From Alphaproteobacteria bacterium (GTDB lineage Bacteria; Pseudomonadota; Alphaproteobacteria; Reyranellales; Reyranellaceae), in the NCBI GenBank assembly GCA_019235415.1, contig JAFAKN010000335.1:1-37217 (forward strand): DNA of 37,217 nt, given 5' to 3'. A program made the position numbers and the translations under genes. Numbering within the stretch: position 1 is the first letter of the stretch; every line of letters starts with the position of its first letter. The notes beneath the pieces were generated by a model that was not told the origin of the DNA, did no database searches, and saw nothing but the letters and a program-made list of their open reading frames with translations. Positions 30,493-37,217 of the stretch are shown here, in pieces.

Positions 30493-31062
30493 CTACATCT
30501 TCACACAGCGGCCCTGGTCCCTGAACGACGCGTTGGGGTTGTCGATGCTCCCACCGGCGACGACCATCGAATTGTCGGCCGGCCAGACGAAGGTGACGGT
30601 CCGCGGCCGGTCGCGTGGATTGACGGCGATGAAGCTGAGCGGCTGCGTGCTGGTGATTGTGGCCGGCGCGTTGTCGTAGCTGGCAACGGTGATCATGCGG
30701 TCCGCCGCCACCTGGATTCTGACCGTATAACTGGATGCCGACTTGCCATCGCGATCGAGGACGCAGACCCATTGGCCGGGCTCCACTGCAACGGCGGCGG
30801 AGGAATAGCTGACGGATATCGGGGTCGCCGGTTGTGGCGGCGCTTCCGGGGTCAGCCCGGTCGCGACCGGAGGCGGCGTGCCGGCGGAAGACGTGGCGCC
30901 CGTCGTGCGGTCCACGACGCTCAAGCTGCCGCGGTACTTGGCGTCCAATGCCGGCAGTTGCGCCTTGGCCGCGCCGCAGAAGCCTGCGACGGACGCAATG
31001 ATGGCGATCGCGAGCAGCGTGCTTGTTAAGTTCCCTGATTGAGACTGGTGTTTGGCGGGCAT
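30493..31062 (-). CDS. Secreted protein with an unrecognised two-cysteine C-terminal domain
   Basis: This is a 189-residue protein. A signal-like helix (LTSTLLAIAIIASVAGFCGAA) ends at AKAQ, then a Pro/Thr-rich linker (about 55-85), then a domain from about 90 to 189 with Cys100 (GQWVCVLD) and Cys186 (DQGRCVKM). The domain aligns by eye with the C-terminus of the next upstream gene: ITV-SYDNA-AT, PLSF-AVNPR, NSM-V-GGS, DNPNASFRDQG. I do not recognise the domain. The start, ATG 31062, lies 17 bases after the upstream stop, so the genes are one transcript. Confidence 0.75.
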   Translation of the reverse strand: MPAKHQSQSGNLTSTLLAIAIIASVAGFCGAAKAQLPALDAKYRGSLSVVDRTTGATSSAGTPPPVATGLTPEAPPQPATPISVSYSSAAVAVEPGQWVCVLDRDGKSASSYTVRIQVAADRMITVASYDNAPATITSTQPLSFIAVNPRDRPRTVTFVWPADNSMVVAGGSIDNPNASFRDQGRCVKM

Positions 31063-31079
31063 CTTCTCCCTGCCCCTCT

Positions 31080-31922
31080 CTATTTCGCAAGCGGCATGCC
31101 GTTGCAGGTCCCCTCGTCGTGAAAGGACGTATTCGGGTCGTTCAGGCTCGGGCCAGTGACGGCAATCGAATTGTTTGAATTCAGCGTGAACGTCGTCAGC
31201 CGGGCGCCTCGCGGATTGACCGCCGAGAAGGTCAGAGGATCGTTCCTGAGCAGGGTCGCCCGCGCGTTTCCATAGGTAAGGACGGTGATGGTTCCGTCCC
31301 TGCTGATCAGGAACTCGACCAGATAGCGGGCCTTGGAAGGGCCGCCGCCATCGATGACCGTGCAGGACCAGCTACCGCCTTCCAGTCCGGCACCTACACC
31401 TGGAGTGCCGACTGCCGATGTGGCGGCCGTCCGCGGGCCAGGCCCTGGGCTGGTTCCACTCGTCACGGCCGTGGCGGACGAGCTGCCAGCGGGGGCGAGA
31501 GTCGGGGGTGGCGCCGTCAAGTCGCTCGAGGCCGAAGACGAGAGCAGATTATGGCGGACCGTACCGGACGTTTCCCGCATCGAATGCCTCGCGACGACGT
31601 TCTGCTCATTGAAGAGGATGACCAGTTCCTTGCTCTGGACGTCGTTGCTCGCCACCAAGATGCCCACGTAAGGGATGAAGTTCTCGGGGTGCGAAGTCAT
31701 GCGCCGCCAGCGATAGACCCAAATCTCGTTCTGTGCGTTGGCAAACGAGACCGACGCCGGAGTGCCGTACTTGGCTTGGACCTCGTTTCGCGTCGTCCTG
31801 CCGTCGATGATGTTTTGATCAACCGCCGCGGCGTCCTGTGTTCGCAGGACGTCGTTTCCAGAGCTGGCACATGCGCCGACCAGCAGAGCCGCCAAAATGG
31901 CGGCGCTTCCCCAAAATCTCAT
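31080..31922 (-). CDS. Lipoprotein with SmpA/BamE-like N-domain and unrecognised two-cysteine C-domain
   Basis: This is a 280-residue protein. Its signal has lipobox VGAC18. Residues about 35-115 (IIDGRTTRNEVQAKYGTPAS, then NEIWVYRW) resemble the SmpA/OmlA (BamE) fold, which in BamE supports outer-membrane protein assembly. A Ser/Pro/Gly/Thr linker (about 125-180) follows, then a C-terminal domain with Cys187 (SWSCTVID) and Cys273 (EGTCNGM). That domain is shared with the next gene. ATG 31922 has GGAG about 9 bases upstream. It is the first gene of the three-gene envelope cluster. Confidence 0.75.
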   Translation of the reverse strand: MRFWGSAAILAALLVGACASSGNDVLRTQDAAAVDQNIIDGRTTRNEVQAKYGTPASVSFANAQNEIWVYRWRRMTSHPENFIPYVGILVASNDVQSKELVILFNEQNVVARHSMRETSGTVRHNLLSSSASSDLTAPPPTLAPAGSSSATAVTSGTSPGPGPRTAATSAVGTPGVGAGLEGGSWSCTVIDGGGPSKARYLVEFLISRDGTITVLTYGNARATLLRNDPLTFSAVNPRGARLTTFTLNSNNSIAVTGPSLNDPNTSFHDEGTCNGMPLAK

Positions 31923-35716: not shown

Positions 35717-35791
35717 CGCCAACCGGAGTCAAGACTGGCCGCATCGCCAAGCTCTGTTGCGCGCATCCATCGGCCCCGCTAGGCAGGCGCC

Positions 35792-37217
35792 GTGCGCGTG
35801 CTGATCACCCGGCCGGAACGCGAGGCCACCGCTCTGGCAGCGGCGCTGGGCGAGCGCGGTCACACGGTCGTCATCGCGCCCTTGTTCCACCTCCAAGTCC
35901 TGCACCCGCCGACCGGCTTCGAGGCCACCCTCGCCGCCTGCCAAGCCGTGCTGCTCACGAGCGCCAACGGCGCGCGGGCGCTGGCCGAGGCGACGCACCA
36001 GCGCGGACGGCGTGTCTTGGCCGTCGGCGACACGACGGCCACCACGGCGGAAGGTCTCGGCTTCTCGGCCGTGACCTCGGCCGCAGGCGACGGCGCGGCG
36101 CTGGCCGAGCTGGTGCGCCAGCGGCTCGACCCCAAGGCCGGACCGCTGCTGCATGTCTGCGGCACAGAGGTCGGTTTCGACCTCGTCGAGACGCTGGGCG
36201 GCAACGGCTTCGAGGTGCACCGGGTCGCGCTGTACGAAGCGCGCCAGGCCGATCGTTTGCCGGCTTCGGCCACAGCCGCACTGCAGGCGCGCGCGCTCGA
36301 TATCGCGACATTCTTCTCGCCGCGAGCCTCGGCGCTGTTCGGCGAGCTGGTGACCGGCGCCAACCTCGGCGACGCCTTGCGCCCGGTGACGGCAGTGGCG
36401 ATCAGCCCGGCCGCCCTGGCGCCTCTTGCCGCCTTGCCCTTCAAGGCGGCGATCGCGGCCGAGCGGCCGACCCGCCAGGCGGTGCTCGACGAAGTCGACC
36501 GACTGGCCACAGAAGGCATACAAGGCAGCGTACAAGCCAGCGGACGAGAGCAGGCCCCCGTGACCGACAATCCCATGAGCGACTCCACGCCCTCTTCATC
36601 GCCCGTTGAAGCGCGCACCGCCGAACCTGCCCAGATCGTGATCCGCCGCGGCTTGGGTTTCTTCGGCGCGCTGCTGGGCGGCGTGGCGGGCGCCCTCGTG
36701 TTCCTGGTGGCGATCGTGGCGACCTTGCCGCTGTGGCCGCATTTCCTGATGAGCCTGTGGCGCGGTGGCGACGCGCCGGCGATCGACGTCGGGCAGATCC
36801 GGGCCGATGCCGGCACCGCGGCGCGCAGCGCAATCGAGGTCGTACGGCACGATCTTGGCCAACGCCTGGAAGAGCTCGACAAGCGGCTGAAAGCGCTGGC
36901 CGACAACGGCGGCAACAAAGCCGCCGTGGCGGACCCGGCTATCGCCGAGCTGCGCGGCAGGATCGCCGCGCTCGAGAATCGGCCCGCACCGCCGGCGTCG
37001 CCAGCCGCGCCTGCGCCGCCAACGGCGTCGCCGGTTGCCCCGCCGTCGCCGAACCCCGAGACGGAAAAGGAAGTCGCCGACCTGCAGCGCCAGATCGAAG
37101 CGTTGCGCGCCACCCTCCAGACGCTCGACCAGACGGTCGCGAGCCAGCGCGAGCAGGCGAAGTCGCTCAGCGACACGCTGAGCGCGCGCGGCACCAGCGA
37201 GCAAAAGGTCCTGCAAG
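35792..37217 (+). CDS. hemD: Uroporphyrinogen-III synthase fused in frame to a Mic60/COG4223-like region (3' end outside window)
   Basis: One frame stays open from GTG 35792 to the window end (475 codons). Residues 1 to about 242 are HemD: VRVLITRPEREATALAAAL, VLLTSANGARALAE, RVLAVGDTTATTAEGLGF, ALYEARQADRLP, ATFFSPRASALFGELV and ERPTRQAVLDEVD. HemD closes hydroxymethylbilane to uroporphyrinogen III in heme and corrinoid synthesis. A polar linker (about 243-285) leads to a membrane helix (about 288-313), then Gln/Arg/Glu-rich coiled-coil segments and an Ala/Pro linker, the layout of alphaproteobacterial Mic60 (mitofilin-like). In relatives these are usually two adjacent genes. In-frame GTG 36560 and ATG 36575 could start a separate Mic60-like product. 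AGGCAGG precedes the GTG. Confidence 0.85.
   Translation, partial: MRVLITRPEREATALAAALGERGHTVVIAPLFHLQVLHPPTGFEATLAACQAVLLTSANGARALAEATHQRGRRVLAVGDTTATTAEGLGFSAVTSAAGDGAALAELVRQRLDPKAGPLLHVCGTEVGFDLVETLGGNGFEVHRVALYEARQADRLPASATAALQARALDIATFFSPRASALFGELVTGANLGDALRPVTAVAISPAALAPLAALPFKAAIAAERPTRQAVLDEVDRLATEGIQGSVQASGREQAPVTDNPMSDSTPSSSPVEARTAEPAQIVIRRGLGFFGALLGGVAGALVFLVAIVATLPLWPHFLMSLWRGGDAPAIDVGQIRADAGTAARSAIEVVRHDLGQRLEELDKRLKALADNGGNKAAVADPAIAELRGRIAALENRPAPPASPAAPAPPTASPVAPPSPNPETEKEVADLQRQIEALRATLQTLDQTVASQREQAKSLSDTLSARGTSEQKVLQ

Follow-up and report, generated by a model that had tools for sequence, protein, structure and literature searches.

Does an open frame that runs off the end of a contig join uroporphyrinogen-III synthase (HemD) and the membrane-organising protein Mic60 in a single polypeptide, and would such a gene yield one product or two? 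The window, meaning the whole stretch of DNA that was analysed, is the entire contig C99 (37,217 bases) of G000, a Reyranella-family genome assembled to 7.63 Mb in 768 contigs. A first-pass annotation made from its letters had placed HemD and a Mic60-like protein in one frame, and had pointed to an in-frame GTG and ATG between them as a possible second start. The features of the locus are the following.

35780..35782, plus strand: in-frame TAG 5′ of hemD, which bounds the earliest start (from the sequence)
35792..37216, plus strand: hemD-mic60 fused open frame, 475 aa, running off the contig end and continuing on contig C559
35831..36484, plus strand: HemD domain, uroporphyrinogen-III synthase PF02602, aa 14-231 (a relative's model matches HemD crystal structures)
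36516..36541, plus strand: small imperfect duplication, GCATACAAGGCAGC / GTACAAGCCAGC (sequence compared with relatives)
36560..36562, plus strand: GTG aligned with the internal ATG conserved in relatives (the old Mic60 start), in a GTGA context, Shine-Dalgarno energy -3.7
36575..36577, plus strand: in-frame ATG five codons further, no Shine-Dalgarno pairing found
36650..36733, plus strand: predicted Mic60 transmembrane helix with Arg-Arg before it (sequence; helix 283-303 in the relative's model)
36800..37216, plus strand: first part of the predicted Mic60 coiled coil, which the contig end truncates (HMM, coiled-coil matches, relative's model)

Results

One frame with two domains

From the GTG at 35792 to the contig end the frame contains zero stops over its 475 codons. 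The one-frame observation is confirmed, and with it the statement that no stop separates the HemD domain from the region of the membrane helix and coiled coil (35792-37216).

The Pfam HEM4 match covers aa 14-231 and profile positions 2-229 of 231 (E 1.2e-34, 119.9 bits against a cut-off of 27.5), and it is the single HEM4 match in the genome. This full-length match above the curated cut-off bears out the HemD assignment. The two-domain fold of HemD was found when the model of the Reyranella massiliensis protein was compared with 4es6 (Z 22.0, rmsd 3.4, 234 residues aligned). Judged by sequence, the HEM4 domain of the window gene is a uroporphyrinogen-III synthase of predicted activity.

The assignment of the second part depends on what lies beyond the contig. 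Mitofilin was absent from the 22 Pfam families listed for the window frame at E up to 1, and when the downstream part was searched alone the best 25 of 50 weak Pfam matches were mostly of coiled-coil types. The window part has no mitofilin match because the signature sits at the far C-terminus. The first-pass annotation had proposed to look for this signature past the contig end, and there it was found, on the overlapping contig C559, as the sole mitofilin (PF09731) match in the genome (C559:404-841, E 1.5e-7, 32.3 bits against a cut-off of 27.4). The start of C559 is a variant of the window tail (window 36862-37217 against C559:1-344), with 92.4% identity in a 356-column alignment and with the window's final 83 bases identical; the two contigs were compared side by side, with no joined assembly. 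The contigs differ within the overlap as two strain variants from one sample might. On C559 the frame runs on through the mitofilin match to a stop, and a hemY-like gene is next; the gene after mic60, both here and in Reyranella, is by its look what we take to be hemY.

A Mic60 HMM built from relatives scored 172 bits against the whole window protein, and the predicted order of one N-terminal membrane helix and then a coiled coil (36650-36733; relative's model) is that of Mic60. Mitofilin on C559, the presence of both domains in relatives and a profile match to 7pv1, described below, uphold the Mic60 assignment. Frame, domains, C559 continuation and relatives all agree on the direct HemD-Mic60 fusion that had been claimed. 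The positive-inside rule, applied to the Arg-Arg before the helix, predicts an N-in orientation with HemD in the cytoplasm.

The R. massiliensis model was built from 40 sequences. HemD has pLDDT values mostly of 93-98, the linker at 244-282 is largely below 50, and the membrane helix at 283-303 is followed by a coiled coil and then by a C-terminal domain in which most values exceed 90, apart from lower ones around 561-590. The internal start discussed below is residue 249 of this protein and falls inside the low-confidence linker. Overall pTM is 0.46, and the model therefore leaves the mutual placement of the parts unfixed. A profile of 40 fusions matched the MIC60-MIC19 chain 7pv1 with its C-terminal part (E 2.4e-8) and HemD 4es6 (E 2.1e-7), and in its middle part it also matched many unrelated coiled coils. 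In a fold search with the whole R. massiliensis model, which hardly probed the Mic60 part, the best rows were HemD structures and no Mic60 was among the matches listed.

Elsewhere in the window, at 30493-31922 on the minus strand, two neighbouring ORFs, one of 189 aa and a lipoprotein-like one of 280 aa, resemble each other in the C-terminal part (GQWVCVLDRDGKS... / GSWSCTVIDGGGPS...), perhaps through a duplication.

The fused frame in the genus, family and order

Among same-genus genomes 35 of 36 matched the window protein, 34 of these 35 without a stop inside the match and the other, G021, with one TAG. At the level of the order HEM4 was present in 70 of 76 genomes, 69 of them within the family. 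The survey of related genomes that the first-pass annotation had recommended returned the same fusion, as an open frame of at least 600 aa, in 63 of the 69 family genomes with HEM4, and also in other lineages. As for the six exceptions, the frames of G000 and G018 run off their contigs, that of G072 starts at a contig edge, G021 contains a TAG, and G075 and G093 gave partial matches. The TAG of G021 (L013 / L057 / L178) is at codon 326, past the junction and by alignment shortly after the membrane helix, and may represent either a broken copy or an assembly error.

Both HEM4 and Mitofilin were found in all 16 chosen family proteins scanned (Pfam, E 0.001). Three genomes consisting of a single contig, G022 (R. 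massiliensis 521), G016 and G082, have HemD once and mitofilin once, in the same frame, the mitofilin match of G082 being below the Pfam cut-off. The fused frame is 658 aa long in R. massiliensis 521, 675 in R. aquatilis and 634 in R. soli; Vineibacter terrae (746), Dongia deserti (714) and Ferruginivarius sediminum (791) have longer frames, in which the match extends across most of the query. Counted from the HemD start, 73 of 80 named loci (80 of 454 matches) are open for 480 aa or more. These named records came from a narrower alignment used as query, and the contig search with the window protein itself returned no relative.

The gene hemC lies apart from hemD in all five Reyranella genomes searched, as well as in G094, and adjoins it in G062 and G098, which belong to sister genera. 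In R. massiliensis (G022) hemD is at C1:4943063 and hemC at C1:5336760, some 394 kb apart, and hemD-mic60 and the hemY-like gene stay together.

Fused and separate genes across Alphaproteobacteria

The HemD-Mic60 fusion is widespread in Alphaproteobacteria and is not special to this contig. Eight unfused outgroups had suggested confinement to the genus, and the class-wide scan overturned that idea. HEM4 was present in 298 of 385 genomes of the class sample, and among the matches listed (150 rows, representing 146 of the 298 genomes) a frame of at least 500 aa occurred in 53 genomes. The loci of 51 of these were fetched; the other two, G067 and G095, were entered as L070 and L056. Mic60 was carried by 43 of the 51 long HemD frames, 40 being recognized by Reyranella-built HMMs and three by Pfam (L083, L084, L107), and the remaining eight comprised six loci with separate genes and two that were assigned to neither state (L080, L126). 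Both Pfam domains were detected in 21 of the 23 proteins of a broad set picked from HMM-positive fusions. The counts are not independent, because the genomes are related and many were assembled from metagenomes.

At 23 loci, including the six just mentioned, the genes are separate and hemD ends in a stop. At 22 of the 23 a long frame, called mic60 by position alone, has its start in the interval from 89 bases upstream to 168 bases downstream of the end of this stop; at L038 no long frame was found after the hemD stop. A HemD tree of 81 rows, poorly resolved and with L080 and L126 coded as fused, gave 16 state changes, of which at least two are forced by strong branches. Outside the alphaproteobacteria PF09731 gave weak matches in 2 of 14 control genomes (E 0.001), one of them over the cut-off. 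A plasmid search with the R. massiliensis protein returned nine records, all matching in the HemD part only and none reaching 80% query coverage.

Some of these proteins, fused or separate, carry an HTH-like domain. In the fusion of F. sediminum (L211) residues 280-332, before the membrane helix, match the HTH-like 'carph-isopro' domain (NF046037, E 1.3e-19). The motif FGGIRPMA/FGGLRPMA is also present in L041, L044, L045, L102, L128 and L135, and HTH-type Pfam matches were found in L126. Lying before the membrane helix, such a DNA-binding-like domain would be cytoplasmic, next to HemD.

A conserved internal start

The start of the second part was studied in 52 distinct Reyranella-type genes (L026, with a frame-shifted body, was excluded); the family count of 63 in 69 is the fairer measure of how common the fusion is, since these 52 were chosen for having both parts in one frame. 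At the old N-terminus of Mic60 (alignment column 276) the codon is ATG in 51 genes and GTG in one, the window's. ATG exceeds 70% of the 52 genes in two columns only, the first codon and column 276. Codons ending in A reach at least 60% in 6 of 638 well-filled columns; three of these, GTA, [C/G/A]AA and GGA, are just upstream of the internal ATG, where they spell an AAGGA Shine-Dalgarno element, and one further such column lies just after it. In their columns GTA is used by 42 and GGA by 44 of the 52 genes, whereas over the whole gene they make up 4.6% of the Val and 6.3% of the Gly codons, respectively; CAA is rare in the gene (13% of the codons for its residue), while GAA is not (35%).

A Shine-Dalgarno energy of -4 or better was obtained for 46 of the 52 internal starts, six being without such an element, compared with 37 of 184 other in-frame ATGs. 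The mean pairing energy of the internal start (-5.4) lay between that of the hemD start (-6.5) and that of the other in-frame ATGs (-2.2). In all 52 genes an A follows the internal start codon (NTGA), although A is the first base of some 15% of the gene's codons. An NTGA overlap is typical of coupled genes. A conserved start codon with a ribosome-binding site is thus found at the N-terminus of the second part.

The linker has eight different lengths among the 52 genes, all in frame, and its alternative frames contain stops in 52 of 52 genes (+1) and in 23 of 52 (+2). The chance figure from the frame, linker and start analysis, 0.0009, takes no account of kinship and was calculated once the pattern was known. 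With the frame kept over these linker lengths and the start signals conserved, selection seems to maintain the internal start as well as the continuous frame.

Outside Reyranella an ATG with an element of -4 or better was found in 30 of 49 fusions (L080 and L126 omitted), in a 40-codon window at the HemD end, compared with 52 of 680 control windows. The other 19 divide into seven with weak ATGs only and 12 with no ATG in the tested window, so that a second product would not be universal; plain fusions and two-start fusions both seem to exist. In a set of 72 ORFs, which includes near-duplicates and the two unconfirmed fusions L080 and L126, an energy of -5 was reached by 37 of 107 linker ATGs and by 61 of 396 others.

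The in-frame GTG and ATG of the first-pass annotation were located at 36560 and 36575. The duplication at 36516-36541 seems to be a displaced counterpart of the relatives' GTA[C/G]AAGGA Shine-Dalgarno element, and it sits too far from the start codon to serve that codon. The suggestion of two products from one frame is favoured by comparison with relatives and at its weakest in the window's own genome, where the GTG has an energy of -3.7, no pairing was found for the next ATG and the element seems displaced.

Discussion

Proposed origin and products of the fused gene

The reading that we consider probable is a HemD-Mic60 fusion accompanied by free Mic60 made from the internal start. We infer its origin, the two products, their topology, the co-localisation and the use of the latter as follows. 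The ancestral hemD and mic60 would have been translationally coupled neighbours with an ATGA stop/start overlap, and a small indel at the hemD end would have deleted the stop and put both frames in register, with the ribosome-binding site and start codon of Mic60 retained. Initiation at the first start would then yield a membrane-anchored fusion, in which a flexible linker leads from a cytoplasmic uroporphyrinogen-III synthase to a single helix in the inner membrane, followed by a coiled coil in the periplasm and, at the C-terminus, the mitofilin domain. Initiation at the internal start would yield free Mic60, which would perform the membrane-organising work. Part of the Mic60 pool would bear the cell's only HemD, and uroporphyrinogen III would likely be formed at Mic60 sites. 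In this manner HemD may be tied to membrane-shaping sites, as the first-pass annotation had supposed.

A step from coupling to fusion by a small indel is suggested by two loci of one genus (f44 g48). In the unfused L115 the hemD stop is the TGA of an ATGA that overlaps the following frame; the fused L104 retains the upstream CAACGGAGCA and the ATG ACC GAG start of L115.

Three other explanations were weighed against the fusion with a second, free product. The joining of two genes by an assembly error, through a lost stop or a frameshift, might be suspected here, since the window closes with its contig and the neighbouring contig is a variant. The relatives rule out such an artefact, which is left with practically no probability: the same frame recurs in the great majority of the family (63 of 69 genomes with HEM4), including R. 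massiliensis 521 with its single contig, and in other lineages too. A plain fusion with a single product, in which the internal ATG and AAGGA element are unused relics of the former mic60 start, would also account for the conserved frame, and would suit both the 12 of 49 fusions elsewhere with no ATG in the tested window and the weak internal start of the window itself. Against it, the element and the ATG are held in A-ending codons in a gene that otherwise avoids them; the single product is disfavoured because unused relics should decay, and we regard it as unlikely.

One may also speculate that a fused precursor is cleaved in the linker into a HemD and a Mic60 that function separately, which would make the fusion incidental. 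The linker is predicted to be disordered, and the 23 examined loci with separate genes are in keeping with such independence. An alignment of 16 sequences showed no conserved linker motif besides the residues around the internal start, however, and the frame is maintained through eight linker lengths, which makes cleavage rather improbable.

A broader proposal, possible but on balance doubtful, is that in Alphaproteobacteria coupled hemD-mic60 pairs were repeatedly converted into one-frame, two-product genes, with an early tetrapyrrole enzyme pinned to Mic60 sites and the internal start setting the ratio of the two forms. This would be the covalent counterpart of the association between MICOS and heme enzymes in mitochondria, and would suggest a link older than the mitochondrion. 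Mic60 is regarded, in the part of PMC8301002 considered, as the oldest part of the crista-shaping machinery of mitochondria. If true, a covalent link between Mic60 and a heme enzyme in free-living alphaproteobacteria would make the age and the purpose of the MICOS-heme association testable in strains like R. massiliensis. The loci further suggest a simple route by which genes coupled in translation through an ATGA overlap could fuse and still keep the second start, and a protein annotated just as uroporphyrinogen-III synthase in Alphaproteobacteria may contain the cell's Mic60.

Relation to known systems

A report of a HemD-Mic60 fusion was not found in the literature searched, which did not include the main Mic60 papers of 2015, 2017 and 2023. 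The available part of PMC7641849, which treats both mitofilin and hemD, makes no mention of a fused HemD and describes an alphaproteobacterial operon of separate hemC, hemD, mitofilin (IMMP) and hemY genes. As far as that part goes, the present locus is alike in that hemD directly precedes mic60 and a hemY-like gene is next, and differs in that the genes there are separate and here form one frame, and in that hemC is not adjacent in five Reyranella genomes.

The C-terminal part of the fusion resembles mitochondrial MIC60 by sequence profile (7pv1, in which MIC60 is fused to MIC19). In the parts of PMC9133952 and PMC12519212 considered, MICOS of yeast and mammals reportedly binds ferrochelatase and supports the synthesis of heme. 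Unlike the present case, the link to a heme enzyme described there is an association and not a fusion, and does not concern uroporphyrinogen-III synthase.

By name, the HemD/HemX fusion NF005411 (PRK06975) is similar, with an N-terminal HemD joined to a membrane protein. HemX was rejected as the partner here, since Pfam gives Mitofilin and not HemX. NF005411 was absent from the scan of the window protein at E up to 1, gave no match in R. massiliensis at E 0.001 and reached its cut-off in none of four fusions, one of which had a 40-residue match of 17.6 bits against a cut-off of 414. HemX occupies the place of mic60 in the hem operon.

The genes of CheA, InfB and ClpB are bacterial genes with an in-frame internal start that gives a long and a short product. 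They are like the present gene in having one frame with two start sites and a short form without the N-terminal domain. Here, in contrast, the putative long form would link an enzyme with a complete second protein, whose own gene, once separate, would have supplied the internal start. By kind, the arrangement appears to be a fusion of an enzyme and a membrane protein with a retained internal start.
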